A DNA stretch of 64,000 bases from Drechmeria coniospora (Eukaryota > Ascomycota > Sordariomycetes > Hypocreales > Ophiocordycipitaceae): NCBI RefSeq assembly GCF_001625195.1, contig NC_054389.1, forward strand, positions 1,984,001 through 2,048,000. The letters run 5' to 3'. This document shows, piece after piece, positions 1,762-62,368 of this stretch. The notes beneath the pieces were generated by a model. The model saw nothing but the letters and a program-made list of their open reading frames with translations. It searched no databases and was not told the DNA's origin. The number at the start of each line of letters is the position of its first letter. The stretch's first letter is position 1. A program made the position numbers and the translations under genes.

Positions 1762-1782
1762 GTACGGAGTAATACTCCGTAC
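1762..1782. repeat. 21-bp hairpin unit of the GTACGGAGTA family
   Basis: The unit is a perfect inverted repeat: arm GTACGGAGTA, one A as spacer, arm TACTCCGTAC. An identical 21-mer lies at 62348-62368. Single arms and the overlapping forms GTACGGAGTAC and GTACTCCGTAC occur in many intergenic stretches of this window. Confidence 0.9.
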
Positions 1783-2022
1783 TCTTACTTGCATATATAC
1801 AGTATACTGTACTCGCACACGCAGTTTGTGAAACTAAATGCATGTTGCAACATACAATATTCCTACGTTCTGTTTTACTATTTTATTGTTGCCTACTTCG
1901 ACAAGCAGATACGTACGATTATCCACCCACTTGATGTGATTGCGGCCACCGCCTTCGCTTGCCTCGCTTGATTGCTCCTCCCTCCCTCCCTCACCTCACC
2001 GACCTACCTCTCAACCACTTCG

Positions 2023-2037
2023 CCCCCCCCCCCCCCC
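2023..2037 (+). repeat. C15 homopolymer
   Basis: Fifteen consecutive C lie in a longer C/T tract just upstream of the flavoenzyme start. Length is prone to sequencing error and replication slippage. Confidence 0.85.
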
Positions 2038-2101
2038 TCCCCCCCTCCCCAACGTTCGGACAACGACGGGGGCGAGGAGGATCCGCACGTTGAAAATTGA
2101 G

Positions 2102-3464
2102 ATGCCGAGGCTGGCGAGTGGATGTATTGCTCCGGTGGCCGCCGCACTGCCCTTGCTGAGAGGCTGCGGATCGCAGAAGTTGCTGTTCAGCTCTTCGTCG
2201 GCCGCACGAGCCGACTTCACCCACGTGGTAAGAAAGCACCTCTTTTTCCTGCTTCTGCCTTGCTTTGCTACTAGAATGTATCGTGTGTCTTGCAAAGTGC
2301 TCACTGCAACGGAATGAACAGGTCGTCGGCGGCGGCGTCGTCGGCCTCGCCGTTGCCCGCCAACTCTCGCTCCGCCCATCGGCCTCAACCCTGCTGCTCG
2401 AGCGCCACGCCGCCGTCGGCACCGAGACGAGCTCGCGGAACAGCGAGGTCATCCACGCCGGCATCTACTACGGACCATCTAGTCTCAAGGCCCGCCTCTG
2501 TGTGCGTGGCAGAAAGCTGCTCTACGACTTTTGTGCCGCCCACGCCGTCGAGCACCGACGCACCGGCAAGTGGATCGTCGCCCAGACGGATGCGCAGCGC
2601 GAGGCCCTGGCCAGCATCGAGCGTCTGTGCCGTGAGGAACTCGACGTGCCGGTCCGCTGGGTGACCGCAGAGGAGGTCGCCGTGCGCGGCGAGGGCGTGC
2701 AAGCCGACAAGGGTGCGCTCGAGAGCCCAACCACGGGTATCGTAGATGCCCACGGTTTGATGATGGCCCTGCTCGGCCTCTTGGAGGAGGCTGGCGGCAT
2801 CGTTGCCCTCAATTCTACCGTCACAGGTATCGTGCCCCTTGGTGCCTCACCTCCAGGCAGCTCCGGCTGGGAAATCACCGTCCGCGACGCCGAGACGGGG
2901 GGGTCCTCGACCATCACCACGGAGACTCTCATCAACGCGGCCGGCCTCGGCGCCGTGACGGTGCACAACATGATCGTGCCCCCCGAGAGGCGGAAGCGGC
3001 TCTATTTCGCAAAGGGAAACTACTTCTCGTATGCCTCCTCACACCCGCGTCTCACCCGGCTGATCTACCCGGCCCCCGAACCTGGCGCTGCCGGCCTCGG
3101 CACCCACCTCACCCTCGACCTGGCTGGCCGCATCCGTTTCGGCCCCGACGTTGAGTGGGTAGACGGACCGGACGATCTGGCCGTCAACCCTGCGCGGCTG
3201 CCGCAAGCCGTCGCCGAAATCCAAAAGTACCTCCCCAGTGTCGACGAGAACTGCCTGATGCCCGACTACGCCGGCATCCGACCCAAGCTGGGGGGCATGG
3301 GCTCCGTAGGCTCTGCCAAGGGCTTTCATGACTTCACCATCCGGAACGAGGACGGCTATGCCGGTTGGGTGAACCTCTTGGGCATCGAGAGTCCTGGCTT
3401 GACCAGTTCCCTAGCCATTGCCGAGGAGGTGGAGCGTCTCCTTCACGGGAGCATCAGCCCGTGA
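2102..3464 (+). CDS. L-2-hydroxyglutarate dehydrogenase family FAD oxidoreductase (mitochondrial)
   Basis: Two exons, 2102-2227 and 2322-3464 (intron 94 bp, GTAAGA...ACAG), encode about 422 residues. Exon 1 gives a basic, Ser-rich, acid-poor leader (MPRLASGCIAPVAAALPLLR) that looks like a mitochondrial presequence. The splice joins ADFTHV to the FAD-binding Rossmann motif VVGGGVVGLAVARQL. Further family motifs are TSSRNSEVIHAGIYY, LKARLCVRGRKLLYDFC, INAAGLGA, RIRFGPDVEW, YAGIRPKL and the C-terminal GIESPGLTSSLAIAEEV, in the order expected for the DAO-fold L2HGDH/LhgO family. Known members oxidise L-2-hydroxyglutarate to 2-oxoglutarate and pass electrons to the quinone pool, a metabolite-repair role. 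Length agrees with the family. The ATG at 2102 is the only one that yields the leader in frame with the motif. Substrate is inferred from family; another 2-hydroxyacid is possible. Confidence 0.88.
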
Positions 3465-3945
3465 AGGGCGTCTACGGCAGACGGAATCGCGGTTATCGTA
3501 TGCATTGTGAGCAACTGTTCCTTGCTAGCACCCCATCCCCTTCCGTCGTCCGGCGGGAGAATGGACAGGACGCAAGCAGCACCCATATCATACAGCAATA
3601 ATCCGACGACTGCGAAGCGATGGCCAGACATACTAGATAGCCCGACAACAACAAACAGTGTGCGCTCCAGCCGCGCGCTTATGAACACGTAACGCAAGAG
3701 TTGAGGTCTTCACAAGCCCCCCCCCTCCGACACTTCCTCCATCAGCGCTAGGCATCCCGTGCGATATTAAGCCATCATGAGTACCATATTCAACACAGAA
3801 GCAGCTCATGCCCGTCGTCGAGAGCTGCGTGGGATAAAAAAGCGATTCGCGTGCTCGGTCAAAATACCAACTCGTTCCGGAACGCCGCATTAGGAACAAC
3901 GGCAAGCAGTTGGAGGCCGTCTCGAAACCGAATCATGCTGCCATC
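3465..3945. other. Convergent intergenic region
   Basis: This is the space between the 3' ends of the flavoenzyme gene and the DUF2415 gene. Nothing coding is seen; it should hold both 3' untranslated regions. A short C-rich run is at about 3716-3726. Confidence 0.6.
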
Positions 3946-6189: not shown

Positions 6190-8532
6190 CCTTGCCTGCC
6201 ATGGTCGGCAACGCCGTCTAGGCGGCAGCTGCGACTGGCAGCTTCAATTGTGCGGCGTGTCAAGCGGTGCCTCGTGAGCGGCCTGCGGCCGGCCGGCTGA
6301 GGCCCGTCGGCGTATCGTAGGCCGTCGCGGCCGGAGAAGCGATGAGGCGCTCCGAGGGACAGGGACGAGAGCGGAGGGCGTGCTCGTGTGCGTGTCCGTG
6401 CTCGTGCCCGTAGAGGTACCGCTGCAGATGCAGGCAGGGCGAAGCCGGACGAATGGCGACCAAGGGTTGCGGCACCGATCGGCATGCAGCATGCAGCGAC
6501 GAGAGGCCAACGGCGAACGTGTCGAAGTCAGCCGGGGCGAGATGGGACGAGCTCTGGACAACGGCACGGAGGCGGCGGCGGCGGTGGGAGGCGGGGGGCG
6601 TCGGAGTCGGCAGCAATCGATGAAGCGATGATGCGGCGATGCAGTGATGTGATGATGCGGCGATGCGATGATGCGGTTGATGCGGTGATGTGGTAAATGG
6701 AGTTGACGACGGGTAGTGCGGCGTCGGGCGTTGCCCCCAAGAGTCGAGTGATTGGTGACTTTCTAGGCCGAAAGCAGTGGAGCGAAAATGGATCGAGAGT
6801 GAAGGAGGGCTTTCGGGCCAGGCCAGGACAGGACAAGGCGGTACTCCGTACGGGGTACAGGCTCGATAGATGACGTCTTCTCATTGTATAGGTACCAAAC
6901 CCGAAAGTAACGGAACCGCCGATGAACCACTCCAACGAACCACCAACCTAAGCTAAAATACCTACAGACAATGTAGAGGGAACACCACAGGGTGGGGGGG
7001 GGGATTGGAGTGGCACAGGGTAAGGTGAGTTTGACAACGGGAAATTCCCCCCCAAAAAATCATCTCCATACGGAGTACGGAGTACTGTAGCTGTACATGC
7101 ACAGTGCAGTGTAAAGTACTGTACTTACTTCGTGCTGCTCCTTGTAGGTAGGGTTTTCGGTATCATTATTACGAGCATGTGTGTGCGGAGTGTAAGCACT
7201 GAAAGGACACCAGGTGAGTGGGGAATGGACAACACCTTTTAACTCACGTATCTACAGTAGGTATGTAGGTGTAAGTACAAGTACACCTACATGCCTGCCT
7301 GTCATTTAGCAAGGTAAGAAAGTAGTTGTACTCTCTACAGTATTTGTCTCAAGGTATCAGCAACTCTAGCATTTCATGACTCATGCAGCACATAGAGGAT
7401 GGAAAGTGGTATTCCTGCAGCAGGCAATCGCACACGTGGAAAGAAAGTAACAATGCTTGCGCTGCAGGAGAGCTTCTTGGGCCGCTTAAGGTTATTGTTA
7501 CGCAGCTGCCATCCCCGAGTTCCTGCTAACTGATGGAGCCGATGATGTTCGATCCTGCGCATACCCTGTGCTATGCATAAGCATACGCCATTCCCGCGGG
7601 GGATTGAGATGTTGGCCGTACTGCTGACCTGTCATGACGATATAAAGAGTGGATAGGCGCCAGGTTTCCTACGACCGTATGATTCTGCAGCACGCATAAA
7701 ATTCTATCATCAATAGTAGAGATGATGAGGAAAGCAGAGACAAAGAAAGCAAGCCAATTACTTGTCATGCCAGCGAACAACCACATGTGCATATACAGTA
7801 CATGTAAGTACATGTCTGTCACAAGCATGGCTGTACTCCGTACTACATTAGTACAGTACGTACATAGTCCGTGTACAGTAATTAATAGTTAAATCCTTTA
7901 ATTACTAGGTACAGGTATCCGTACGACTTATTACTGTACAATACAGATATGGAGTATTACTCCGCATTTGTATCAAGACTTGTAAGTACAGTATTCTGTG
8001 CTGTACTTACACTAAGTACTTAAGTACTTACCCTACAGAGTACGGAGCTCGCAACGGAGTACATGTACAGTACAGTAAGTACATGTAATCCGTAAGTAGT
8101 GTCACTACGGAGCGGAGTACTTACAAGTGCTCCGTAAGTATTTGTACTTAAGTATGTGCTTGTACATGCCCACCCACATGTGCAGTACAAGTACAACTAG
8201 AATTGCGGGTACCTCATCCTCGCCAACGATTGGTGTCCAGAATCCATCCGTACCTGTAGCGACCAGGATCATCCGGACTAATCATAATCCGGGTCAAGCA
8301 GTCAGGTCCCAGCTGAGCTTGCCGCCTTCCTTTGGCTTCTATGCCCGCCGGTGTTTTCCCAGGTCCTTGGGGCCAAAAAAATTCGCTTCGCCCCTTCTCA
8401 GCAACTCCATTTCCACTCATCCCATCTCGTCCCATCCCCATCCCCATCCGCCTCCCTCCATACCTCTTCTCTGAGCGTGCCTGCTTCCTTTCCTTAATCT
8501 TTCACCTGTACACTCTCCTATTCACACTCAAG
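6190..8532. other. Long intergenic region upstream of SSC1 and the DUF2415 gene
   Basis: No gene is supported. This divergent region should carry the promoters of both flanking genes. It contains a GATG-rich simple repeat (about 6620-6690), an AT-rich GTAC-word stretch (about 7060-7340 and 7790-8190), and a pyrimidine-rich part (about 8390-8530) next to SSC1. One CCCCT stress-response-like word occurs near 8393, but I see no clear heat-shock element array. Confidence 0.55.
6620..6692 (+). repeat. Imperfect GATGATGCGG simple repeat
   Basis: Imperfect tandem units of GATGATGCGG, GATGCG and GATGTG fill this stretch. They lie in non-coding sequence about 430 bp upstream of the DUF2415 start. Confidence 0.75.
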
Positions 8533-9206
8533 ATGCTGTCCTCGCGTCTCTCCCGGGCTGTACGTTACTCCTCTCGACCTCAACGTTGCTGTACCCCTGC
8601 TAACGTGTCTGGACGGCAGCTTCCCCGAGCTACTCCCATCACAAGCCGCTCGGCCTTTGCCAGGGCACCTCTGGCTTCCAGATTCGCTCGCCATGAGTCT
8701 ACGGCTGCCGGCGAGGGCGAAGGCAAGGTCCAGGGCGCCGTCATCGGTATCGATCTCGGCACCACCAACTCGGCCGTCGCCATCATGGAGGGCAAGGTCC
8801 CTCGCATCATCGAAAACTCCGAAGGTAGCTCCCCCCACAACCTATCGGCCACCAACTAGCCTGCAGCCTTTGCTGACGTGAACCTGCAGGTGCCCGTACC
8901 ACCCCTTCGGTCATCGCCTTTGCCGAGGACGGCGAGCGGCTGGTCGGTGTCGCCGCCAAGCGACAGGCCGTCGTCAACCCGGAAAACACACTCTTCGCCA
9001 CGAAGCGATTGATAGGACGCAAGTTCACCGATGTCGAGGTCCAGCGGGACATCAAGGAGGTCCCTTATAAGATCGTCCAGCACACCAACGGCGACGCATG
9101 GGTCTCTGCTCGTGATCAGAAGTACTCGCCCTCGCAGATCGGCGGCTTCGTCCTCAACAAGATGAAGGAGACGGCCGAAGCTTACCTGTCGAAGCCCATC
9201 AAGAAT

Positions 9207-9239
<33 letters not shown>

Positions 9240-11999: not shown

Positions 12000-12859
12000 G
12001 CTGAAGGTTCTCCGCAGGCGTCCGCATATACTTTTATCTTTTTATTTCGTTGTCTACTTCGTTTTTTTCAACGTCCGTCTGCTTCCGTCCGCTTCATCGA
12101 GGGACCGCTGCACGCATCGTTGAGGATTTCCGGCATCGAGAAACGAGGTGAGGCCGATGCTCGACGTTGAGAGGACATTCGATTCTTAAAGACGTCTCCA
12201 TGAAGGCCTAGGGAATGTGATTGTTGCCCCTCTGGAGCGACCATCTGGGCGGTCATTCCATCGAAAGCCGGATAGGAACGCAGCAGGTCGTGAAACATGT
12301 CTCGTGCGGGTTCCCAAGGGTTGTCGAAGCTACAGCCCGTACGAGCACTAGTTAATTGCCAGTTACCTTGCACCAAGCACTACGCTGTAGAAGGCCAGTA
12401 TCTGCAGAGAATTGTCCAGGTACGTATACAGTAATAGTAGAGCAAGGAGTACTCCGTACAGAGGGCCTATACATGTACGTAGACCGACTCCAGTGGCGAC
12501 TACAGTGGTTGTACGGAGTATTCCGTACTTGCTTGTGCAACACTTATTGGTCCAAGGCATGCAATGCACACTCAGCATGTTCGCGTGTTGTGCTGTTAGG
12601 GTAGAGATAGAATTTAGTCAGCTCGCTCACAGGAACGGTGCCAACGTTTATCGATCTAAATGTCTCACACAACGACTGCCAATGACGGCTGACCCATGCA
12701 ATCCCGTCCTCTCTTGCGCCGCGGTACAAAGAACGGTTTATCGCAGTTGTAGGGACATGCGGCACTCGTAGTGCGAGCAGTTTGTACATGACTACGGAGT
12801 GAACAGCGCACCGAGAGCCACTCGTGCTATACATCCCTCCCTCCCTCCCTCCCTCCTCC
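12000..12859. other. Intergenic between the small membrane protein and SRP68
   Basis: No gene is seen. A GTAC-rich stretch (about 12410-12530) contains GTACTCCGTAC at 12449-12459, and a CCCT tandem run (about 12834-12857) abuts the SRP68 stop codon. Confidence 0.55.
12834..12857 (+). repeat. (CCCT)n microsatellite
   Basis: About six tandem TCCC units end a few bases before the SRP68 stop codon, so they lie in its 3' untranslated region. Confidence 0.8.
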
Positions 12860-14880: not shown

Positions 14881-15179
14881 CTTCGCCGGTCCGCTGAGCC
14901 AGCGAGAGGGGAATTCAAGTCTGAAGATTTCGCTGCTGTGTGCGGTGTGCGCGCACTGCCGTTGACTGTAGTTGAACTGTGGGGCACGGTCAACCTGCTT
15001 GCTTGAACGGAGACGGCACGTTGGCAAAAATTGAGATCGTGGACGGAAAGGCGGGCGTTGACTTAGTCCGTGCCTGTGCTGGGGACGCTGCGCGGTGGAC
15101 TTGCACAAGTACACCTGCTGCACTCCATATATTTAATTTATTGTGCAGTACTGTAGTCGGTGTGTTACATAAGCTCTTT

Positions 15180-15198
15180 GGGGGGGGGGGGGGGGGGG
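15180..15198 (+). repeat. G19 homopolymer
   Basis: Nineteen consecutive G lie in non-coding DNA upstream of SRP68. The exact length may be a sequencing or assembly artefact. Confidence 0.85.
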
Positions 15199-17866
15199 AC
15201 GGGTACGCAAGTACTGTATGTACTCCGTACAGTAAATAATAGTCATTATTACAGAACTCCGTACGGAGTAATAATAGTTGGAAAGCTTGGCAGCCAGCTA
15301 CAGTAGACGGACGGACAACTGGAGCAGTTCCTCCTGACCTGCCGAGTGTACGGAGTATGGAGTAAGTATGTAATTATATATTGTTATACTAATACTATTC
15401 CCTGGTTCTACTTTTTACGGAACACAACTCACTCGTGGCAATACTTGTACTTCGTACATGTACGGAGTCCTTGCATGCAGCACTTACAACTAACTACAAG
15501 TACAAGTATGGCAAGTACGGAGTACTAGCAGCATGATTACTTGGTGTCAACGGAACAAAAGAGCCTCTCCTCTCTCTGCCACTTGTACCGGATGCACTCG
15601 CACACTACTTCTCAGATAGTCATTGGCCGATTTGATGACGCAAAGTCACAATGTTGTCTGGTCGGCTGATGATGAGCACCTTCAGACCAACTTTCATTTG
15701 CCCATGTCACATTCCATGCCAGACACGGTCCTGGATTCCCTCCCGCGTGCAATCCCGCGCACATGTAGATGGATGCGTCGGCACGGAGTGTTGCGTACCC
15801 TACCCAAAATTACAGTGCAGCAAGTATGTGCATGTACCCACGGATGGCTGCATGGCATACTTACGATCCAAGTGCGTCGCACTGCTCCCGATATTATTCA
15901 CATGCTACGTGCAGGTCGTCTCCGATCGTGGCTGGTCATGTTGGCAAAAATCCCATCACGTGCTGACCGCGCGGGGCAGGCGCTGCGCGTTGACGGCTTT
16001 GGAAACACCGCACCGGCTCCGTTCCCGCCCAGGACAAACGGCAAATACGACCTCGGCCCTCCGTACGGAGTACTGAATATCGTGTTCGTCGGAAAAGACG
16101 AAAGGAGGTCTCTACCCTGCAATCGACATGGCTCGCGGAAACCTCCATTTTTTGGTGTCGCAGCTGGCAGACATTGTTCAAGTATGGACAAAGTGGAGGA
16201 GTGAGGGCATGGAGGAAGTGAACGGGCCTGCGCTACTCCGTACTGGGATCTCTAAATTCGGGAATTGCACGTGTGGATGAGATTGAGGGTGACAGCGACG
16301 GTAGATTATTAATGAGAATTCAAGGTCCGGCCGACTGCATTTCAGCACGTCCTATCGCGGCACTTGTGTTGGAAATCACGTCCTCTCGAGCTTGGCTTTC
16401 GCTGCTCCCTATCTCTTGGCGGATGGGGTACCTGCTACAAGCAGTTGCGACTAGTACCCACCTAGTCCCGATACGCGAATACCAGATGCTACGGAGGTGC
16501 AGGTCGGAAACAATCCAGGTGCTTGCGGCAATGGTAGGGGGAGGGGAGGGCACGTAGCTAGCAGGTGAAGCTCCATCGATTGATCGTCAGATGTTGTTAG
16601 CAATTCTTGTACTGAACTTTGTAACTGCCTACCACCTCTGTTAGTCATACTCCGTTCCAAATACTCACCTCCAAACGCAAACATACTGATAGGCTTAGTG
16701 CAAGTACTGTAATGCTACTCGTGCACAGTACATATACCAGTATTGTTGTAGGGGACAATGCACATGCGCCAAACTGTACAGTCTGGCAGGTGCCACGGCT
16801 TCCGCTAGAATGGTACCGACCTAGTATGTTCCTGCTGGCTCGTTCATGCCTTCCTGACACATGGCTTTCATCCTCCGGCCTACTCTAACTGGCAGTACCT
16901 ATTACCTACCCACCGAATACAGTGAACCTCTAGCACATTTGACACCAAGGTACTCCGTGGTTGGCGGGTATCACAGCAAACGACTCGGACACAAGTACTT
17001 GCAGAGTACCAGTGCACGCACTGTGCAGCCAAGTCACCACCCATGCCTACGGCCCTCTAGCTGTGCCTGCGTCGTGCTCGGGTCGAAAAGTAGTTGCCGC
17101 GTCTGTTACTAACCTAGGGATGCGGTAGACTGCAAGTACAGCAACTACTTTGTAGGAAGCGGTAACTAACTTTTCGCACCGACGTGCAGGTACATGTTTC
17201 CTCGGCTCGTCACTGTCGAGTCGTTGCACGTGCCCTTCGACGGAGGGCAAACTAGACCGTAGACCACTGCGGCGGATTGGAGGGGGGGGGTTGCACCAGC
17301 CAATAGAGAGTTAGAGAGTACCGCTAACGGGCTGCGAACTGCAAACAGTGCGGTCCAGCTGACCTTGACTCGTACGTTCCACAGCGTCATGGAGGGGAGC
17401 GACGGACAGATGAATGGACGCGGCAATCTGCATCCAGCATCCAGCATACTGCAGCGCACCCTGCACCGAGCACCGAGCAGCCTACAGCAGCCTCCAGCAC
17501 CCTGCGTTGGCGTAGGTACCCAGCCGTAGCACCCACCTTGCTACGCCAAGGCACTCGTCACCTCACCTCAACTCGCCTCGCCTGAACTCCATCCATCCTG
17601 CATCGCCTCGACTCGCCGCCGATCATTGTCTCGTCCCGTTATCCGTCCGCGACCTCTCCACTGCGCCCAGCTCCTATCCCCCGCCGCCGCCGCCGCCGCC
17701 GCTCCTCCGCCGCTCACTTCCATTTCTACTGAGCATCGCTCACCCGTTCCATTCACCCCCAGGAGCGGCATCGTCCTGCGTGCCTATCTACTTCAGCCGA
17801 GCCGTCGCCGTTCCCGTTTCCCGTTTCCTTTCCTTATATTTCCTTGTTACTTTTCTCCTCCTTACG

Positions 17867-17914
17867 CCTCCTCCTCCTCCTCCTCCTCCTCCTCCTGCTC
17901 CTCCTGCTCCTCCT
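17867..17914 (+). repeat. (CTC)n pyrimidine tract
   Basis: Tandem CTC units with occasional TGC interruptions lie in the presumed leader of the SNF2-type gene, about 360 bp before its start codon. Confidence 0.8.
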
Positions 17915-47502: not shown

Positions 47503-48751
47503 GGCGTGCAGCGGGTGCCGATTCGGAACGTGTGGTAGGCAGGCAGTTGCAGTTGAAGGGGGGGAGGCGAAGGCGAAGGGAGGATGGGGAAGACGAAGGA
47601 AGAGATGCAGCTTGTTGGGTGGGTTGAAGCTTGGGAGCCGGAGGGGTTGTGCTCGGCCTTGGTGGCGGGGGGGGTTTGGGGGGCAACGAAATGGTTAGAG
47701 GTGGTACTCGAAAATAGGTGCTAGATAGGCGCAGAAATATGTACTTCCTTAGCAGCGGTGAGTGTGTGTGGGGAAACGAGAGACGGCAGGTTGACGACTA
47801 ATTGATGGAGAGCAAATACAACGTACACGGTACTCCGTACATTGGCTCCAATTGCCGTACACAACGTGTGTCTGCAAATCTTATAGTACTTATACTGTCT
47901 CGAAAGTACTACCACCAGAACATTCGCCCACCATGTCTGTTCGCAGACGCGGCACAAGCTGGCGTTAAAATTGAGCTGCTTCAAATGTGGGCAATAGGGG
48001 ATGGATCAGGCGTAATGAACGGCTCGTCTTCAGGCGGAAGGAAAATTGCTTCATTTCTCAGGCCATGAGTAATATGACAATGGCAGGGCCGTAATTAGAC
48101 CTCGCAGCAGAATCGGGGGAGGGCTAGTTATTTTCTGACCCCAGTTGGTCAGGGCAGTCGTCCTGCGAGCTGAGCTCGGAGTACAGTACTGTCGATGGCA
48201 GAGGACGGCATCAAGTGAAGGTGCCTTCCGTCGCGATGCCCGACGTCGGATCGTCGTCGCGTTCTCCCATCGTTTTTGTGTCAAACTTGGCGTGGCCACG
48301 CGGCATAGGATAGGGATGGGGTTGGGATGCGCGCGGTCCTCACCATGGTTAAAGCCAGTGATCCTCGACGAGGAGCCAAGGCTCAGGACGGGGGGGGGCA
48401 ACATGCGTGTGCCATGGAGCAGAGGTCGTGCTGGGCGTGACGCTGGCCGATGGTCATTTGATTCTCTCATTTCCCTGTCTGGCCGGCTCGGGACCACGAA
48501 ACGGGTATCAGGGTGCGCACATGCTGCCAGGCTACACGACTGCTAGATGGGCACCTCCTATTCTTACAATGCCCCGTCTCTGCTCTCTGAAATACGCTCG
48601 CGCGACCTATTGTCCGCTGCAAGATCACAGTCTCCGTCGACAGCCCTCAGAGATGCGCAATCCCAGCCATGTAGACATATATACTTTACAGAGCACCGCT
48701 CAGCTCCGCTCCGCTCCGCTCCGATTCGTCTTGGTTCTCGCCGGTCCGTTC
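47503..48751. other. Intergenic between GDI1 5' end and MRPL4 3' end
   Basis: It should hold the GDI1 promoter. No gene is supported; open frames over 48145-48960 lack protein features and run antisense into MRPL4. A single GTACTCCGTAC word lies near 47830. Confidence 0.55.
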
Positions 48752-49570: not shown

Positions 49571-50148
49571 TGAAATGGTGAGGCCGGCTCAGACAGGCTC
49601 GGATGCCAGATGCCAGCCGCTGGGGAGTGACGACGGAAATTTTGGGATGCTCTGGCCGAAGCATCATCTGATTGGAGGGCGGGCATCAGCTCCATGGCTC
49701 CACCACGAATCCCGTCACCGACAGTCTGCGCAAATGGCCTACCCTGCACTACTATCCCCCCACATTGGGTTCATCTCGACTCCTCCATGAGTCGAAAGCA
49801 TCTTGATTTTTCGTTAGCCCCCCTGTTACGCGCAGATGAATGTAAATATATACAGTTGTGGCAAGGGCTAGATGTAGAATTGTACTGCAAATAGGGAAGA
49901 AGGTGTAATGCGCGCTGGTGACTAAGACGGTGACTGTCGGGAATCCCACTGTTAGGGTGACTTATGCCTAACTACTACTTGACAGGGTACAACTCCATAA
50001 CACTCCCCAAATATAAAATACAGCATTTTTCTCACCACCGCACAAGAAACAAGACCAAAAGAATTAAACTCTGGTTTCTTATCCAACCTACGCCCTTGAC
50101 ACCTATATAAATACCTTCTATCTACTCGTTAAGAGTACCCTATTCATT
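49571..50148. other. Intergenic with a TATA element before a broken secreted-protein gene
   Basis: It includes the MRPL4 promoter side and an AT-rich stretch from about 49960. A TATA box sits at about 50104-50112. No gene is seen. Confidence 0.6.
50104..50112 (+). promoter_or_regulatory. TATA-box element
   Basis: TATATAAAT lies about 40 bases upstream of the ATG at 50149, a normal spacing for a TATA-driven fungal gene with a short leader. I see no comparably clear box upstream of the housekeeping genes. Confidence 0.5.
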
Positions 50149-50625
50149 ATGGTTCAATTTCAGGCTGTCCTTATTTTGTTCCTGCATTAGCTGGTTTCCA
50201 CTGCCCCGTCTGCAGCTGAACCTGACCAAGCTGGAGCGAAGCCCTGTATAGAAGCAGTGCACCAGGCTCTCAAGCTGAATTCGCTGCAATGCATGAACGA
50301 CCACGAAGTCTTGAACGCGTGCGCTACAGCTACCGACTGGTTCTCTTGCCTCCAAGTCCAGTTTAAGGAATGCATCGACACTGCGAATGGATCTCGTCCC
50401 AGAACTGACGACTGCCTTAACAAGCATAATGTGAAGTACAAACACCCAAGCGAAAAAAAAAAAAAGATTTATATGGGAAAAGTGAGGATTGAGGAGATGG
50501 ATTCTCTGCTTTGTTATAAAGACTGTATAGAGCACCGACCAACTACAATAGAGCCTTATAGACAGACTGATTACTCTGATCAACCAATCTTGTTCGAACG
50601 AGGGAAACATTATGCTTTCTACTAA
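50149..50625 (+). pseudogene. Small cysteine-rich secreted protein with in-frame TAG at codon 14
   Basis: The ATG at 50149 starts a signal-peptide-like stretch (MVQFQAVLILFLH). TAG at 50188-50190 interrupts it, and the frame then continues without a stop to 50625. The continuation completes a signal-peptide end (LVSTAPSAAEP) followed by a Cys-rich mature part. Cys occur in KPCIEA, LQCMND, NACATA, FSCLQV, KECIDT and DDCLNK, with two more near the end (LLCYKDC). Spacing is compact, like disulfide-bonded secreted proteins. A13 at 50453-50465 encodes a Lys run and is a likely slippage site. No GT-AG intron of normal size removes the TAG. It is either a recently broken gene, a readthrough case, or a base error. 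The family is not recognised, and no activity is claimed. A start at a later ATG would lose the signal peptide. Confidence 0.55.
50453..50465 (+). repeat. A13 homopolymer inside the broken secreted-protein frame
   Basis: Thirteen consecutive A encode part of a Lys run. One base more or less would shift the frame of the last 50 codons. Confidence 0.8.
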
Positions 50626-51759
50626 TTGTGGCAAGGCGACAATCCGAAGCTTATTGTGCTTCGTACATGTACAACATCATACTCTGGCCAGAGTGCGTCG
50701 ATATTCTTTCCCAACCGTACCGGTGTCACGGAATGAAAGCTACACGTATGGATTTGTGCTCATGACGAAAGGCACACGCGCCGTCATCGTCTACTGTATG
50801 GCCACTGTTATCGAAACTCCCCCCACAATCACGGCAACATGGCTGTGTCAGTCGCAAGTTCTACTGCATATACAGTCCTGCCATGCAGGTGCCGCAGAGC
50901 GAAGGTCGATTTGGCCGAGGACTGATGCAACATGCCACAACATGAACCCAACGCTCTTCGATCCTCAAAAAAGGTGATGCCAGATGGGAGTTGCAACAAT
51001 GCGCCGGCATCTACTGTATGCTTCGAACCGCTACTGCATGCTTCGAACCTCAGTCTGCCTAGTGAGTGAATGACCTGTTTTACTCGTTGCCCGAGGAGCA
51101 GGTCCAAGATGGCAGTCGCGGAGCTTATGATACTGGCGAGGGACAAGGGGAACGCATGCACGCCACAGGCAACAACCTGCCTGAAGTGCACCCGAGAAGT
51201 GGACGACCACCCTCTAGACGAGGGTGGGCTTCGAGAATCACAGTGCTAGACACCGGCAACAAGCAAGTCAAATCGGCCCTTGATGCACGCCGCAGAAGAA
51301 GCCGACGTCCTCACATGCCATGCAGCGAGCGCCCCGCTTGTCACACATTCCCTTGACAGGTTCGCACTCAGCGTCACCGCCGAGCTGAGGCTGGAACGCG
51401 GGCGCGGCCACGCTGGAGCAACGTCGTTCCAGATTGGTTCAAGTTGAATATTCAGCCAGAGATGACGAGTATGATGACCGACGACAACAACAACGACAAC
51501 AACGACATACTTACGTATCGGCGTGTGAGCCAGACGAGGCAAGCGCGTGAACGCGGACTGGCTCCGAGAGAGATGCTGTTGCTGCACTGGGATGCCCACG
51601 GGACACGCGCTTTTTACAACATACCTCGCGAATGGCAACAGACACGAAGAAAAGGGGCGAATGTAGGGCAAGAATGACAACGACATTGGAAACCGACTCA
51701 GTGTCATGCTGACAGTTGAACAGAAAAGATCATGACTCTTCTGCCGATATACTGTAGGT

Positions 51760-52660
51760 AAGATATGTACTTGTACTTGTACTTGGCTACTTACTGTACA
51801 GTACATCTGGATGCTGTAAGTACTTACAGTACTATTTACTAGTACTTGTAGAAGTACGGAGTACGGAGTACGAATGCTGTGATTGCGTGATACTTGCTCA
51901 TCTACTAGGTACGAAGTACCGAGTGCCTACAGTACTTAATTACAACTACAGCACACATACCATTACATGTATGTAGCGTACTGCGTACTTACTGTACCAA
52001 GGTGTTCAGTGCGAAGTACTTACTCCGTACTTGTACATGTTCTCCGAAGCAGATGAACGAACCCAAGCCGGAGTACGGAGTACTCCGTAGGTGTAAATTA
52101 TTACTTAGTTGTAAGTACTTACATGAACGGAGTACTTACTCGTACGTAAGTACTGTGCTGTGTAGGTGTATCGTCGGACAAAACAACGCACGTGGACGGA
52201 AAGTACCTGTAGTTACAACTACATGTACGGAGTACGGAGTACAGCTACAAGTATTATTTTACGTACCAAGTAAGTATGTGTCATGGTCGTACTCCGTAAG
52301 TAAGTACAAGTACTGTAAATGTACTGTAAGTACTCCGTATTGTACTCCGTAGGTGCAGACAATGTACATGCAGTTGAAGTACGGCAAGTGGTAGTACTGT
52401 ACTTGTACTCCGTACGGAATACAGTACATACTTACTAGCTTGCCCAGGTAAAAGTACTTGGTGCTCATATCCGGGTACAAGCGAGTTGGTGCAATTCCTT
52501 GCACTCTGTACTCCGTAAGTACGTCCACACTTGCTTACGGAGCTGTGCAACGTACATATAGTCCGTACATGTAATACAAGTAATGGAAAATGTAACGTGT
52601 CGGTCTGTATTCCATGTACATGTACAGTACTCTTGTAAGTATGAAGTATCGCATCCACAG
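51760..52660. repeat. GTAC-word cluster
   Basis: Dense non-periodic GTAC words in both orientations, including overlapping GTACGGAGTAC copies near 51855-51870 and 52070-52090. Confidence 0.7.
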
Positions 52661-53144
52661 TCATCCACCGCGTCTCACCGCTTCCGACAGCCGACAACCG
52701 AGTGGAAGGAACCCAATGTGGGACTTCCCGTGGTGAACGACTCCATCAGCCCATCCAAAACCGCCCGCCCCATTTCTTCCGTTTCTTCCATTTATTTCTT
52801 CCATCAATCCTTTGTCGAACGACCTGGACCACAAGCACGAGCCAGTGGGGAGGGGGGTGTTGCTATTGCCCCCCCTCCCCCCTCTTCCGTTCGCTGCTAC
52901 TGGCATGCCAACCCAGCCTTCGACTTGCCTCGCATGGAAATCGTCCAAGACGCATTCTTTCGACGGAGAAGAGCGGAACCGGCAAGCAGGGGCGAGGGAA
53001 GAACCGGACAAAGCCAGGTCAGAAGACGTGGAAAAAGCATCGGACGGCAGTGAATGAGCGAACGAGTGGCGAGGGTGAGGGAAGGAAGCAAAAGCACCGA
53101 CGTGCCGTTCGTGGCCCTGATGGCCGGCCCACAGGTGGCAGGTA

Positions 53145-54380
53145 TCCGTACTCCGTACGGAGTACAGTACATGTATTTGTACTGTTACCTAAGTACTTGC
53201 TGTAAGTACGGAGTAGGGGTTCTAGATTGCGGAACCTGGCGCCCCGGGCCGGCCAGCCTCCTCTTCTCCTCAAGGGCGAGTGGGTGGGAGGTTGGATGGC
53301 ATTCTCGTTGGTCCTGTGACGTGATGTTGTCGTCCAGTTTTCTGGCCTCGACAGGCACGTGCACTTGCACTTACTAGCAAGTGCAGTAGTAATGATTGTA
53401 CCCGCATGTACGGAGTACGGAGTACTTACATGCATGATATGTTCTCGTCGAATATGCCCAAGTACGTACGGGACGAGTAATTAGGTAAGTACTCCGTCCG
53501 TCCTTGCGCGTACGCACAAGCACAATTGCTTGCGCAAGGACAAGTTGGCAGTACTTACTCATACAAAGTAGTACTTGTAAGTACTTGGACATAAGCATTA
53601 CTGTGCTTCGTACTTCCGTACTTCGTACTGTACTGTACTGTACTTACTTGCAAGTACTTGCAACTACAGTCCATGTGCAGATGAGTGTTTTGTTGAGCCT
53701 GTTCACCGTACGGAGTACGCCTACATGTACAGTACAATACAACAACTACTTACATAGTACGGAGTACAACTACGCGTATACACCTAGTAATACATGTACT
53801 TACTGTACACGTACTATACCGTACACCTGCAGGTACTTATATCCTTATCAGTACGGCGGATCCAGCCAGGGGGGGGGTTGATTTTCCTTCTACCTCGCAC
53901 ACCTCCAGATAACAGGTACTGCATGTACTGCGTGCTGTAGTTGTGCATGTACTTACTGTACGCATAGTACCTAGTATGCATGTGCATGTGCTTGTAGAAG
54001 GGTACTGTACACTGTTCGTGGTATCTCCAGTACAAGTACGGATACTGTATTACTTGTAGACTTGTACTTGTACGCTGCACACTCCGTACAGTACTTATTT
54101 GTTGTAATTACATGTACGGTACACACCTACTGCACAGTGTAATACTGTACGAGCGTTGTGGGTGCATGCGCCGTGCTTGGAGCCGTTCTACGGGAATGTT
54201 GGCTCGTCGAGGACCGTTACCCAAGTAAGTACATTCAGTAATACAACTACTTACATACTGTACATACAGTACTTGTACACGGAGCACAGCTAAGTACGTA
54301 CAGTAAGTACCTAGTAGACACAAGCGCTGATACTTGCACTGTACTTGTACAGCAGTACAGTACAAACCTCCGTACAGTAC
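53145..54380. repeat. GTAC-word cluster
   Basis: Dense GTACGGAGTAC, GTACTCCGTAC and ACTTGTAC-type words, interrupted at about 53225-53350 by ordinary GC-richer sequence. Confidence 0.65.
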
Positions 54381-55784
54381 ATGCAAGGTCTGGAGGCGTG
54401 ACTGTGCAAAGGTGACACTGTATCAATTATGCTGTAAATACCGGCTTCGGGCAATGCGCTTTTGGGGGCGATCGAGCAATGCAAGCCCCCTCTTCATCGG
54501 GCACGACTCCGTCTTTGAGGTGTACAACTAAGTAATACGCAGAAAGGGGAGTAAGAGGGACGACGACGTCTTTTGGAGCACGATAATCACAATCATGTCC
54601 AACGACGCCCTGGTCGACGCAGCCCCTGTAGGACGGCCTGGCATTGCCATTGGGCTTGATTCGATGCTGATGATATGGTGCATACTTGTGCAAGCATAAT
54701 GCACTGTACAGTACGATCAGATATATTACTGGTACTCTTCATGTAATTTGGAGAAGATGTACTGATATCCTCCCAATCGCACCCCCGAATACGAACCAAT
54801 ATCATCAGACCGAAGCCAGACTCGGTCGAAAGTGCAGCAAGTAATAGTACTTACTTGCTCCGTGTAAAGGAGGTGTAGGTATCATTATAAGTACAAGCAA
54901 CATGAAGTATTCGTGCTCGCCTTGTAGCCTGATTTTTGCCCCCGCCCGTCATCCGTTCCTTGGTAGCCAGGTTGCACAGTAAAGTGTCATCCCGCATCCC
55001 GCATGCTTCATCCGTATCCGCAAGTGCTGGCCACTTTCTAGCATCGCGAGCCACTTTTCGTTCAAGTCAGCAAATATCCTTACCGCGATGGCACCAGATT
55101 CTGGTGGCACGCGGCTGGGAGGAGGCACGCCGTTCCGCCCCCGCGGGATCCGTCGAGAGAAGACTTGGCAAAGAAGAAAGGAAGTCGGGGAACAAAAAAC
55201 AAGGTGGACGATGACCCGTTGAACGAGATAAGGAGCCCCTCCCTATCTACCGGATGTGCTGATATGGGGGTAGGTTTCGTCAAGCAAAAGTACAAGTACA
55301 CCTACTTGTACGAGTACTGTAATACTGCAAGTACGTACTTGCATGTAGACTGATAGCTACTCAAGTACGGAGTACTGTACACTGACAATCACGATCAGAC
55401 GCGCTGCAGCACCGAGCTTCCCCACGCGTACAGTACACATACGATCCATGGCAGGAAAGGCCACGTCCAGCCGAGAGGCGAGTCGGCCTTGAAAGATGGC
55501 ATTCCGCACACGTGTACACATACATGGTGCGCAGCTGTGCCCTGTGCTCGCAACTCGGGTCATGGAGCGGGTCGTGTATCGCCAGAACACTTCGACCCGC
55601 CGGTTGCTGTTTGGGGGGAGGACAACGCAGCGCCGTCATCGGACGCAGGACATTATCGTCGCACGGGCCGCTCAAGGCACGCACTTGCAATTACTTACAT
55701 CACAATCACAGGCATGCTGGTCCTTGGATGTCGGCGAATGATCAGAGTCGCGTACGACCGAGGCCTCAGGGCTGGTCCCTCGAC

Positions 55785-55906
55785 CAACACCAACCCCGAC
55801 ACCACCAACACAAACCCCAATACCAACACGATGAACACGATGAACACGACGAACACCACCATGAACACCACCAACACCACCGACGCAGCACCAACACCAC
55901 CAACAT
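55785..55906 (+). repeat. AACACCACC-type minisatellite
   Basis: Imperfect tandem units of 6-9 bases (AACACC, AACACG, ACCACCAAC) run for about 120 bp. They make an Asn/Thr-rich frame on the plus strand and a Val/Phe-rich, falsely membrane-like frame on the minus strand. Confidence 0.8.
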
Positions 55907-56660
55907 GAGACACACCAAGCCGAGACCGGCGAGAGGGCCCGCCAAGGCCATTCTATATACATGTACTGGTAGTTGTATGTTGTCGTGACTGGCGACTGAC
56001 AGTGACGACAAGCGATTTGGCGATGACGAGCAACCCTGCCAGCCCATGCCCTTGGTGAGGAGTCATTTTGCGACACGCAAGTAGGCACACCTACTTCCCC
56101 AAGCAGTAGCAGTACTCCCATACCTGCTGGCCGTCCGCCCATTACTATGCATGTCGGGTATAGGTGCACATGTGCGTGCAGGAGTTGGTAAGCAGGCCAA
56201 CGAAATAGGTACGTGCTCGTTCATGTCTACCTGCAGCCACCGTACTCTACAGCCGTGCCAGTTGGGGTGGGTGGTATTGCATACTACTAGATGAGTGCGT
56301 GCACAGCACGTTGCTGGTCAGCTAACCATGCGTGTATTTGACGCCCATCAATCACACGGCCTGAGTGTGCCCTTGCCGGGGAGAGAATCGGAGCCGTCCC
56401 TGGCGTATCCATCTGAGAGGATGGCACATCCGGCCAAACAGGCCAAACAAATTCGTAGCGGCGAGGGATAGATCTGGCACTGCAAAGTACGAGACCAGTA
56501 ACAGCAGGAGCACCGGAATTTGCCCCAGACGCCCTCGAGGACGAGCTCTTGACTGCTCGAGTGCGGTGCACGTTCAGCCCTCGTCGGGATGACGATGCAA
56601 ATTTCGAACGCCGTGGCAGCAATCCGAACGGGCTTCGTGAACGAGCAAGACATCCGACAT

Positions 56661-56720
<60 letters not shown>
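56661..56720 (+). repeat. (GTC)20 microsatellite
   Basis: Twenty perfect GTC units lie in intergenic DNA, the longest perfect trinucleotide array in the window. Confidence 0.9.
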
Positions 56721-59700
56721 TATACGTGTACAGTATGCATTAATGCCTTCCGCTTGCTTCCATGGTTTCCATCGCTCTCCCGCCGCTCCTCAAGCAACTG
56801 CGACACGGTTGCGAGTACAAGCGAGTTAGTACCGCAAGTGTGCTAACTTGTGGACTGTAAGTCCTTGCTGTACTTGGTGTTGCGACTCGTAGGCGTAGGT
56901 CCCAATCGTGCAGTCTTTCAATCCCTGTAGGCGTCAGCACGAGGACTGAGCGTAAGTAGATGCGCTTGCGAGCCGATGCATTGAATGCACAAGTAGGATT
57001 GCAGGTGGTGCCGCTATCGCTCGGCCATCGGGCCATTGTCGGCAGAGCTCGTCCGTCTCCGGAAACCTGACGTGTCTTGGGTGGCAGAAGTCAACGGTGC
57101 AAAAGCCATGCATCCATCCACGATCTCGTATCCTTGTACAGTACGGAATACGGAGTAGATGAAGACGTAAACCCGTACAGTACGAACGGTTACCGCACTA
57201 AGTAAAACCTAGTAATACTGCAGGCGTGTTTGTACATGGAAGTATACGCGAGTGACGGTACGACCATGAAAGTACGTACATGCATGCAATGCTTGTACTT
57301 GTGGCAGTACGAGCTCTACAGTGCGGACAAGCCAGCACAAATACCGTACTTGTAATACCTGCAAGTTGTACTGTACTCGGTACTCCGCACCCGTATTGGG
57401 TGTTGCGATAGATATCCTTTCTCGCCCTGCAACCGTTCACGCTAGATCCTGAGAAAAAAAATTAAATACCCCTGCCGTATCTCGGCCTTATTTGGCCGGG
57501 GCCAGTTTTCTCTCACCTTGACACATGGCCATAGCGAGAGGGATATTTTCTCTGGCGACACTGGCGCGTCCAGCGCCCAGTCCCGTTACATAGGTGTACA
57601 GTACTTAAGTACATGTACTTGCAACGTACAAACGTCCTTTGGCGCCTGGCAGTTTGCTGGCTGACTGACCCCTGCGAACCTGAATGATTGTTTAATTGCG
57701 TGATTTCTCCCTCCGTGTCCAAGTACTGTACTTGCATGTATTACTCCATGTACAGTGTTCGTTGTGCTTGTACTGTACGTAATTAATTAGTTAGCAGACA
57801 CTCCGTACTTATTACCTACTCCGTACCTACTTACTTTGTGGTCACTTGCAGTACGGAGTTCTCGTGGACAATGAACCGATGTGCATGTCCAGTAAGTACT
57901 TGCTGTAACTACATGTACAAGCATCTGAAGGAGTCATTCTTGCCCACTCGCGCGCAAGTATTTACTCCGTACTCCGTACTTGCGTCCACATCCACAACTG
58001 CAGCACTTGATGCTCCGCAGTGAGCAGCTGCGACTTGCACCTGGCCGCTTCAACGTGCCAGTGCTACTTTGCTTGCGCCCCGACAGAGTTCTCGGGATAT
58101 GAATCTTCTCCACATCAAGCAAGACAAGAGCGGGCGGGTGGCGTTGGACTGCAGCGTAACCGATGCCAAACGGGTGGGCGGGCAAGCAAGCAAGCAGCAT
58201 GTCGGAGTTCGTCCGAGGTCGGCTCTGCGACGCCATCGGTTCCCGATCCTGACTCGCGGCACATCGGCCTGATCCAGAATGTGCAAGGACAAGTATTAAT
58301 ACTCGTACTATAGAGCAGATGATGCCCTTGCTCCAAGTTGAACTCGTACTTGCATCAAATCAATACGTGTACTGTACTGTACGTACATGTACTTCGTTGT
58401 ACTTACTCTGTTGGCGTCACTGAGAAAATTAAGCACCATGTGCATTCTGATCACTACCATCAACACCACGAGTTGTTGCACTCGTCCTCAGCACGCAGCT
58501 AAGGTACCTGTGAGCCGCCGCGACTACTCGCACGTGCTGCCTCGCCTGTTGCTCGGCTCGTCTTCGAACAAAGGTGCGAATGTAAGATGCTGCCTACATG
58601 GTTTGCACGGATAGCACGTGTGTGAAGTACTGCACACCTACAAGGACTCATAATGTGTACATGTACTTACCGTACTCCGTACTCTGGCTGCCGTTGCGGT
58701 TCGCGAGTTGTCCTTGCTGGCGTTTGTTGGCTTCGCACCAGCGATGAAAGCCAAATTTGGGGCTGGCTGGGGGCGTCGCCTAGTACCTACGTACTAGGTT
58801 CTACTGCACATGTACTGTACATGTACATGGCAGGACGGTCGTGCCAGCCCAAGTACAGCAAGTACTCGGTACGTGCACACCTACTAGTACAGCACATCAC
58901 AGTACATGCACACCCGCAAATACACCTGCGACGGCGGTACGGACACAGTTGTTCAATGACATCAGTGCTGCACGGCGGTGTATTTCGCATGTCCGTTAAC
59001 ATTCATGTGGCTGTGTAGGTACCTAGTACCTAGGTATGTGTGAATGCAAGTGCTGGTTGTGTGAGGTCGACGTCCGAGAACCCAGGCACGATGAGGAAGG
59101 GGAGTGAGACAATTGCCCCGATGATCTCGGCTCGGGGGTGTTGGCAGTTTCATCCACCCATCCGTCCATCTTCAAGTACTGTAGCCATCCATCCATCCAT
59201 CTCCATGATCTCATGTCTCATGGCGTCGGCTGGCCCTCCCCCCCACCGCTTCCCGTCCAGCACTTGTCGCACGGATGGACCTCTACAAGCACAAGTACTG
59301 TACATGTGCACTAAACTAGTACTAACTAGTATTAACATCTACGGCACACAACGAAGCGCCTTCAAGTATTCTCCGTGCTGAAAGTACAGGTAAGTGAAAG
59401 TAATGCAAGTTTACTGTACGGAGTACGAAGAACCTCGAACAATTCTAAATACAACGCATTAATAGTACAAATACTCTGTGCTCTGCCCACACCTACGTTG
59501 GTGCCATACAGTAGGCATTACGGAATATTCTCGCTGGGGTGCACGTGTTGTTGAGTATCGACTGTTTGAGCCCATATTACTCGTTCTCCAAGTCCTTGCG
59601 ATGGTGCGCCAAGTAATGCGCATGCAAGTAAGTACTGTAGAGCAACAAAGTACATGTACAGTACTCTGCACACTGTACTGTATTTTTTGGGTGTACAACT

Positions 59701-60249
59701 ACGGTACGGAGTACATGTGTACTAGAACGTAGTCCATATTACAGTACATCTCACACGAACATGTACAACTACCTAGAACTAGGCACGAGTACTGTATTTG
59801 TACTGAACGGTTTGTTTGTGGGTGGGAGGGGGCTGGATGGATCCTTCGGAGACGGCAATGTCTGGGTCACTCTCCACATGAGCCTCTCGCGAGTCCCGCT
59901 TTACTCCCCAGGCACGTTGTTGACTGCCGTCGGTGTAGCGGATACTGTTGTGGTTCTGGCCTCAAACGTCACATCTGGCGACGGCCGGCTAGGGCTCCGG
60001 GTCCGGACGGCTGGATTCAGCGCCGCCCGCCCAACGCATTTTCACCACCCGCCCAGCCCGCTGCCGTCGCCGACGCGGGCTGGCTCGCCTCTCACCCACA
60101 ATAAACAGCTACCCACACCACCCAGCCTTCCGATCATGCACAACGGCGGAGCATTGCCCTGTACTTTGTCATGCAAGCACATGCATCCCTTGACCTGTCG
60201 AGAAGCGCAAGTTCGTTGATCGCCCAGCCACATCGTCACGGGGAAGGGA

Positions 60250-60265
60250 GGGGGGGGGGGGGGGG
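60250..60265 (+). repeat. G16 homopolymer
   Basis: Sixteen consecutive G lie in intergenic DNA within a G-rich stretch. Length is uncertain for the usual technical reasons. Confidence 0.85.
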
Positions 60266-60289
60266 TGGGATGTGAGAAGCAGGACATGT

Positions 60290-61040
60290 GTCCGTATGTA
60301 ATATGTGCGTACCACGTAATGGCCGTACTGTACTTACGGAGTACAAGCAAGTATTAGTTGTAATTACAGCAAGTACAAGTACGTGTATGCGTCCTCACAA
60401 ACTTCATGTAGAACGGTACAAGTACATGTGCAGGTACGAAGTGAATGTACTGTACAGCAAGTACTCCGTACTCCGTACATGTATTACCTGTTGTAGTTGT
60501 ACAACTAAGTACCTGCTTGCACAGGACGCGCCTATCTACTGTGGGTGTAGAGTACGTAAGTAATTTGTATGTAGAGTACTCCGTACATGCTTGCTTAAAC
60601 GAGAATTGGTGCATTATTACGAGAGTGCTAATGCTCAAGTGTGTTTACCGTACTACTCGCATAACGCGAAGCGCACCTGTATCAGTGGTAGGTACCACGT
60701 AGTAGTTGCACTTATGTATGCGGGTGGGGACGAGACGTGCTCGACGACGGCAAAGAGCAAGGACAACGTACCGAACTACTCGTCATGGGACTGAGAAACA
60801 CGTGCACGCAAGTGCAATGCGATACAAGCAAGTCCAAGCATTATTACTGCACATGAACGGAGTGCTCCGTACTCCGTACTGTACTCTTATGCCGTACTTG
60901 TACGGAGTACAGTAATACATAATTTCTCCGTTGACATTACAATACTGAGTATTGATAATTAATACCCTCGGCTGTGACCGCCGCAATGGGTAGGGGTTGG
61001 CAAGTTTACAAGTACGGAATACTCCGTACACCTGTTGTAA
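60290..61040. repeat. GTAC-word cluster
   Basis: Dense GTAC words with overlapping GTACTCCGTAC copies near 60460-60480 and 60865-60880; non-periodic. Confidence 0.65.
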
Positions 61041-61317
61041 TTACACCTGCTTGTCTTTCCACCAAAGTAAAGTACACTTTTGGCAAGCGCAGGGCTCTTT
61101 CATGTCCTCGTGTCTCCGTTTAATCGTGACAAACTCAGCTGAGGGCAGTAAGTACAAGTAATAAGTACTACGAGACGAATCAATACTGGGAGATGGATAA
61201 ATGGGCAGGCAGCGTGTCCGATGTGAATGGAAATGTCGCAAACGGACAAGGATTCCTCGCTTGGCAACAACTGACCATCAAGCTTGGCTAAGCGACGAGC
61301 CAGTTACTGCCCCAATC

Positions 61318-61371
<54 letters not shown>
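61318..61371 (+). repeat. (CAGG)n microsatellite
   Basis: About 13 perfect CAGG units lie in intergenic DNA. Confidence 0.9.
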
Positions 61372-61372
<1 letters not shown>

Positions 61373-62347
61373 AAAGACAAAAGACAGATACTGTAGGCAG
61401 ACGAACAGTCAGCCAAGGCAATTCATGAGAGGCGCAAGACAAGTGCTTGGGCTGGCAGGCACTGGCATGAGCCATGACCGCAAATTGAAACAGGAAAATG
61501 AACGGCGCCCTCTCAGGACGGCATGAAGCCGAGCAAGGGCATGTACTTACTTGCTGCAAGCACTTGTACAATGCACTGTACTCCGTGCTTGTACACATAC
61601 ATGCAAGTACATGTACGTGTCCAAGTGTGTCCTGTAAATCTGGAAAGACGGATAGAGAAGGAGGAAAAATTCTTGGGTCAGGTGTCCAGGCGGTGAGGCA
61701 TCAATGTGCGCATAAACGACGCCATCAGGTATTATCCCTGACTCCGGACAAATCTCGGAACGCACTACCAGCATGACCCTACTAGTACGGCACACCGGCA
61801 GACACGGGCTTGTACGTTCACTCATGTGCAAGGGGAGTACTTGCATCTGCGCGATGCACCAAGTGCTGTTGGAGTACTCCGTACTTATTGCAGTATTACT
61901 TGCTTGCACTCTGTACAGTAATAGTGGTGCAGTGGTCGTACACACTTGTACAGAACAGTAAAGCACTTGTGCATGTACATGTAAGTGAGTGCTTATGTGC
62001 GAGCACTGATGTAATTACTTGTCCAAGCAGTCGTACGACAAAGTTCTCCGTACAATGTACTCCGTCCTCCGTCCTCCGTTCTGGTATCTGCTTTCTTTCG
62101 TACCCGTACTAGAGAATGAGCCATCTTGCCAAATGTACGATAGGCCCTGCTTGGCCTATGGCGCTAGGTTTATAGGCACGAATTAGACCTAGTGCACCAT
62201 AATCGGCACGCCGTCGGGTTGATGTATCACTTCCGTGACAGTGCGGAATTCCCACCACGGGACGCACTAACTTACCTGCGAACAATGTCCGTACCACTAG
62301 GAATCCGACATGCATAAGTACGAAGGTATCGACATGTGCGGAATACG

Positions 62348-62368
62348 GTACGGAGTAATACTCCGTAC
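62348..62368. repeat. 21-bp hairpin unit, identical to the copy at 1762-1782
   Basis: Arm GTACGGAGTA, spacer A, arm TACTCCGTAC. It is identical to the left-end copy over all 21 bases and lies in a GTAC-rich cluster. Confidence 0.9.

Follow-up and report, generated by a model that had tools for sequence, protein, structure and literature searches.

The closest described counterparts of the element reported here, a 10-bp word dispersed through the non-coding DNA of Drechmeria coniospora (GTACGGAGTA; reverse complement TACTCCGTAC; 11-mer GTACTCCGTAC; 9-bp core TACGGAGTA), come from Aspergillus fumigatus, which lies in another fungal class, and from Ustilaginoidea virens, which like D. coniospora belongs to the Hypocreales. 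The word was noticed in a stretch of 64,000 nucleotides (contig C1, positions 1984001–2048000; hereafter the window) of a genome of 32.8 Mb in 28 contigs. According to the published accounts, chromatin immunoprecipitation sequencing (ChIP-seq) of A. fumigatus SomA followed by MEME recovered GTACTCCGTAC in 119 of 476 shared peaks, and binding in electrophoretic mobility shift assays (EMSA) was lost on mutation (PMC7667024). The motif is repeated in a further paper (PMC9581972), and SomA also binds a word-carrying fragment of the meaB promoter in EMSA (PMC10900910). In U. virens, TACGGAGTA is found within the top six motifs of the ChIP-seq peaks of UvCGBP1, a C2H2 factor with an EMSA-confirmed site, C/AAGGGG, and with 74.5% of its peaks in promoters (PMC8344781). 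A third occurrence concerns the Tardis Starship of A. fumigatus, the predicted target of which is TACGGAGTAG; in Af293 the 10-mer CTACGGAGTA is over-represented, and the authors, who note its overlap with C6 zinc-cluster motifs predicted for A. nidulans (JASPAR UN0291.2), propose that it could be a site for a transcription factor (PMC12153272). In the matched text of three other papers the word occurs only inside primers, from A. flavus (PMC11537487), A. fumigatus (an abcG1 promoter probe; PMC6414702) and Fusarium verticillioides (PMC12430421). The suspicion in the initial annotation of the window that the word might already be known from other Pezizomycotina was therefore correct. In the cited passages it is common to Aspergillus and Hypocreales, yet named there piecemeal. 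The string 'palindrom' does not occur in the main text of two D. coniospora genome papers (PMC4859500, PMC7500977), and among the literature matches listed none reported, for this fungus, how many copies of the word exist, that they lie upstream of genes or which spacers occur.

We consider it probable (about 0.7) that the word is a very abundant promoter cis-element in D. coniospora, the putative site of a sequence-specific, probably dimeric DNA-binding protein. This option, one of those raised by the initial annotation, is favoured because of the upstream placement of the word, its position-specific tolerance of mismatches and the published ChIP and EMSA data on the same word. The D. coniospora word shares its 11 bp and its promoter location with the SomA motif, its identical 9-bp core with the motif from UvCGBP1 peaks, and the same core with the Tardis target and CTACGGAGTA, which is likewise over-represented genome-wide and a suspected transcription factor site. 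The SomA motif was counted in ChIP-seq peaks of A. fumigatus, the D. coniospora word as ~12,200 exact 10-mers across the genome.

The window holds 65 exact copies (35 GTACGGAGTA and 30 TACTCCGTAC), whereas 100 dinucleotide-shuffled versions of it averaged 0.05 copies and had at most 1. Across the genome there are 6029 + 6168 = 12,197 exact copies, about 200 times as many as of the control, the same letters reversed (28 + 30 = 58). Allowing up to one mismatch, the 11-mer GTACTCCGTAC occurs 23,852 times and its control 686 times. Whilst copy-number and arrangement counts (doublets, triplets, inverted pairs) were genome-wide, placement and mismatch tests were made on a 264-kb sample consisting of the window and one 200-kb block (C1:5.0–5.2 Mb), all on contig C1. 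This sample contains 144 copies, far above the Markov expectation (1.6 for order 3; 0.3 to 3.1 for orders 1 to 4). For orders 5 and 6 the expectation is 19.5 and 83 copies, an unfair null because these models were trained on the word itself. With strands pooled, the word (144) and its one-base-shifted form (140) are the top 10-mers of the sample, which also holds 101 exact copies of the 11-mer. Density reaches 1.0 per kb in the window versus a genome mean of 0.37 per kb, with the 200-kb block (79 copies) near that mean, and copies are clustered (variance/mean about 1.7–2.2). All seven example coordinates and both 21-bp inverted pairs given by the initial annotation were confirmed by re-reading the window. 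Its statement that the word recurs in most intergenic stretches held as to recurrence, 'most' being slightly strong: among gaps of at least 100 bp, 8 of 16 in the window and 27 of 59 in the block contain a copy.

Coding DNA was called with a home-made 3-periodic Markov segmenter; long open frames served for training, and the word positions were masked to keep them from voting. By this segmenter, 53% of the sample is non-coding. This fraction contains 143 of the 144 copies, where an order-2 model expects 1.2. The earlier impression that no full copy lies in a coding exon thus stood for these 143. The one other copy, at 6842–6851, falls under a doubtful coding call, since the frame holding it (206 residues) lacks a Met and matches no Pfam family. 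For the 78 genes with at least 300 coding bases, 47 words lie within 600 bp upstream and 7 within 600 bp downstream, and over the same distance 25 genes have more upstream words and 2 more downstream words. A word occurs within 2 kb upstream of 43 of the 78 genes. The 15.7 kb of convergent gaps contain 3 words (in 3 of 21 gaps), compared with 53 words in 57.3 kb of divergent gaps (16 of 22) and 51 words in 51.7 kb of tandem gaps (16 of 32). The convergent class is therefore about five-fold depleted, with 14.6 words expected and 3 found (gap classes permuted within length tertiles, p = 0.005). These three classes take in 107 of the 144 words, the remaining 37 being the copy at 6842 and 36 past the final gene called in the window. 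Orientation relative to the downstream gene is random (38:38). Sites of the general regulatory factors of budding yeast (Reb1, Abf1, Rap1) are also abundant in promoters, with a different sequence. Like them, the D. coniospora word is very abundant, promoter-biased and orientation-independent, and its copy number is much above theirs.

The one-mismatch forms of the 11-mer likewise lie mostly in non-coding DNA (170 versus 9.9 expected), with 3 in coding DNA. Their numbers by position, from 1 to 11, are 39, 14, 4, 3, 14, 12, 5, 4, 19, 13 and 43 (chi-square versus uniform, p about 3e-21). Mismatches concentrate at the two ends (39, 43) and are scarce at A3, C4, A7 and G8 (4, 3, 5, 4), and the profile is approximately mirror-symmetric about the centre (39/43, 14/13, 3/4) with the exception of pairs 3/9 (4/19) and 5/7 (14/5). 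Such position-specific tolerance fits a protein-binding site. At the end positions the three substitutions are equally common, and CpG transitions (positions 2 and 6) form no hot spot; this pattern does not fit a set of copied elements in simple neutral decay. The flanks of the 144 aligned copies are flat except for an A at −1 (73/144); C occupies position 11 in 101 of 144 copies.

The word is also the commonest member of a wider set of TAC-spacer-GTA words with spacers of 1–3. GTAC-N-GTAC occurs 108 times with spacer 1 (A/T in 99), 129 times with spacer 2 (AA/TT 50, AT 45) and 166 times with spacer 3 (GGA/TCC 101), in each case versus 18 expected. Amongst the other 15 four-base palindromes, at spacers 0 to 12, the highest was CATG with spacer 2 (44 versus 11). 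The mismatch profile of the 11-mer would suit a dimer that recognises TAC...GTA and prefers GGA/TCC between the two halves. Other words over-represented in non-coding DNA of the window and of C1:5.0–5.2 Mb are TACATGTA, GTACTGTA, GTACAAGTAC, TAAGTACTTA and ACTAGGTA.

As a promoter element, the putative site would be approximately dyad-symmetric (TAC - GGA/TCC - GTA, mostly completed to GTAC on both sides) and could be bound in D. coniospora by a protein acting as a dimer. The word, to judge from its genome copies, would be used upstream of very many genes. The factor may then work broadly, opening or marking promoters, and not on one regulon. Selection would maintain the words site by site, and the same factor, or ones related to it, might also read the spacer-1 and spacer-2 sister words.

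Several observations weigh against such an element. No word occurs in the 2 kb upstream of 35 of the 78 sampled genes. Word density climbs again more than 600 bp downstream of genes, to 2.4–2.9 per kb at 1.6–2.0 kb (14 words), which we read as presumably the upstream region of the next gene. Gene limits came from our own segmenter, which has no untranslated regions or splice sites and was compared with no annotation. Every tested GTAC-containing word, and GTAC itself, has the same upstream bias; regional composition could be part of the upstream signal, and the claim for any single word is tempered because its sister words and bare GTAC behave alike. Pairs of TAC and GTA are about two-fold over expectation even at longer distances, so that the word set has as its background non-coding DNA that is rich in GTAC generally. 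The 88 interior one-mismatch forms (positions 2–10) comprise 55 transitions and 33 transversions, and mutational turnover therefore also shapes the word variants. Finally, the 3.1-kb SomA-like locus of D. coniospora (see below) contains neither the 10-mer nor the 9-mer, and in A. fumigatus each replicate for SomA itself yields only about 580 peaks (PMC7667024).

A mutational process, by slippage of GTAC/TACTCCG or biased repair, might instead create GTAC-rich simple sequence in non-coding DNA with no selecting protein. Bare GTAC is denser in non-coding (13.3 per kb) than in coding DNA (2.4 per kb), and this, the excess of many GTAC-spacer words and the transition lean of interior forms all agree with such an origin, as do 594 direct doublets (words 7 bp apart with GTAC in common) and 29 triplets genome-wide (controls, 0). 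However, slippage predicts long arrays, whereas triplets amount to 5% of doublets and the longest is a single five-unit array. The mismatch spectrum is strongly position-specific, and depletion in convergent and near-3′ non-coding DNA would not be expected if the process affected non-coding DNA as a whole; we regard this explanation as quite unlikely. An element that serves chromatin, nucleosome positioning or replication and has no part in transcription would account for the very high copy number, the independence of orientation and the clustering, yet location upstream of genes and scarcity in convergent gaps point to promoters, making such an element improbable. The copies might also be the residue of a tiny foldback element, as the initial annotation had considered, or of one resembling a miniature inverted-repeat transposable element (MITE). 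The two identical 10-1-10 hairpins in the window are correct as sequence and are not special. Inverted pairs of this type (spacer 0–3) number 32 genome-wide and the opposite, non-hairpin arrangement is commoner still (58). Both exceed the 4 to 5 predicted by uniform placement (own arithmetic) because words cluster, so clustering suffices and no hairpin preference is seen; in the 264-kb sample, direct doublets outnumber inverted overlaps 10 to 1. The flanks of the two window pairs agree at 4/30 and 7/30 positions, and the 144 aligned copies are without clear similarity past the 11-bp site and the A at −1. With neither sequence shared beyond the word nor a preferred inverted arrangement, we rejected a foldback or MITE residue, which has hardly any probability left.

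A more specific proposal is that the copies are sites of SomA/Som1 (Flo8-class), and that SomA and its partner PtaB directly control most word-bearing promoters. The ChIP-seq and EMSA results on GTACTCCGTAC in A. fumigatus (PMC7667024) speak for it, as does a LUFS-like exon encoded on contig C2, found by searching the genome with a Flo8 segment (41% over query residues 41–72, E 1.3e-4). This exon contains LNTYIYEYF...FLHEWFCLFWDIYN, with LisH-like residues by eye; it matched no Pfam family at E up to 1 and was unlisted in a LisH search of the genome. That family search for SomA gave five candidates, three above the cut-off, which by eye are other LisH proteins and none SomA. The number of SomA peaks given above, with the motif in 119 of the shared ones, is at odds with control on this scale, and in yeast SomA acts via FLO11 promoter regions with the Flo8 consensus TTTGC (PMC4631450). 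The word is also present in UvCGBP1 peaks, suggesting a co-occurring promoter motif, one of six for a factor whose confirmed site differs (PMC8344781), and the related 10-mer overlaps the predicted zinc-cluster motifs (PMC12153272). We therefore think direct control by SomA unlikely. Recovery with two unrelated baits suggests that the word marks active promoters generally, the true binder perhaps being a third protein. The Tardis target TACGGAGTAG and the over-representation of CTACGGAGTA in Af293 (PMC12153272) would allow the copies to be Starship target sites or footprints. Unlike the Tardis system, the D. coniospora genome had no match above the cut-off to the captain family DUF3435 in a six-frame, intron-blind search, with a single sub-threshold fragment (C1:357623–357763), and we give this idea almost no credence.

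Beyond the promoter element proposed for D. coniospora, it is possible, and we suggest it only tentatively, that TACGGAGTA belongs, together with its spacer-1 and spacer-2 sisters (TAC-A/T-GTA, TAC-AA/AT-GTA), to a single promoter code of filamentous ascomycetes, in which a conserved general factor would recognise GTAC/TAC half-site dyads and keep thousands of promoters open. If true, this would explain both the word in ChIP peaks of unrelated factors and its adoption as a Starship landing site. If the word is read by one factor, this protein would regulate promoters globally in filamentous ascomycetes, and if ChIP recovers the word with unrelated factors, some of the 'binding motifs' in the literature may indicate open promoters and not the site of the bait. 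A word upstream of about half of the sampled genes is a very strong cis-signal to obtain without any experiment.

The exact copies on both strands of the whole window are given in Table 1. More than half of them (36 of 65) lie in a gene-poor stretch in which the segmenter finds three coding scraps. This gap extends ~7.7 kb past the window, with 11 further words in the next 8 kb, and in total comprises ~22 kb and 47 words. It ends at a Fungal_trans-domain gene (E 6.8e-21) with C2H2-type fingers, by eye. This single case, of an extended word-rich region preceding the gene of a regulator, is consistent with a regulatory function.

Table 1 Exact copies of the word in the window, with the word-dense stretch (positions within the window).
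Feature	Position	Strand	Basis
Inverted word pair, 10-1-10	1762..1782	.	exact words
Word, only copy under coding call (frame without Met)	6842..6851	-	
Word	7075..7084	+	
Word	7834..7843	-	
Word	12450..12459	-	
Word	12511..12520	+	
Word	15221..15230	-	
Word	15261..15270	+	
Word	15348..15357	+	
Word	15515..15524	+	
Word	16063..16072	+	
Word	16234..16243	-	
Word	31395..31404	-	
Word	32522..32531	-	
Word	32846..32855	+	
Word	33630..33639	-	
Word	36869..36878	+	
Word	37018..37027	+	
Word	37092..37101	+	
Word	37151..37160	-	
Direct doublet, words 7 bp apart, common GTAC	37294..37310	-	
Word	37356..37365	+	
Word	42001..42010	+	
Word	42218..42227	+	
Direct doublet	42595..42611	-	
Word	47831..47840	-	
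Direct doublet	51854..51870	+	
Word	52021..52030	-	
Word	52073..52082	+	
Direct doublet	52225..52241	+	
Word	52406..52415	-	
Inverted overlapping word pair	53149..53164	.	
Word	53206..53215	+	
Direct doublet	53408..53424	+	
Word	53708..53717	+	
Word	53757..53766	+	
Word	55365..55374	+	
Word	57817..57826	-	
Two words, 7 bp apart; absent from 18-mer doublet list	57963..57979	-	
Word	58673..58682	-	
Word	59416..59425	+	
Word	59704..59713	+	
Direct doublet	60462..60478	-	
Word	60577..60586	-	
Word	60870..60879	-	
Word	60900..60909	+	
Word	61020..61029	-	
Word	61875..61884	-	
Inverted word pair, 10-1-10	62348..62368	.	exact words
Word	62522..62531	+	
Word	62738..62747	+	
Word	62774..62783	+	
Word	63126..63135	+	
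Word	63590..63599	+	
Word	63760..63769	-	
Gene-poor, word-dense stretch, 36 words	49588..64000	.	segmenter + word scan

A scan of IMG/VR with the 18-mer doublet returned six contigs with 2 to 5 word copies each, mostly in short 7-bp tandem arrays, some of them mixed with TACTCAG units. These arrays resemble cyanobacterial heptamer repeats and are probably unrelated to the fungal word.

Other observations concern genes of the window. A gamma-tubulin-complex protein gene is predicted at 22729–24765(-); its product is 100% identical to a D. coniospora protein over 94% of the query, and the next named match has 88% identity. The frame at 8859–10811(-) matches Pfam NAD-GH (PF10712, E 2.4e-135) and the opposite strand, 8877–10703(+), encodes Hsp70 (E 1.1e-253); the minus-strand match looks like an antisense artefact. 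Finally, 39442–40182(-) encodes a retroviral-type aspartyl protease with a UBA domain, and is presumably a cellular Ddi1 gene, not a retroelement.

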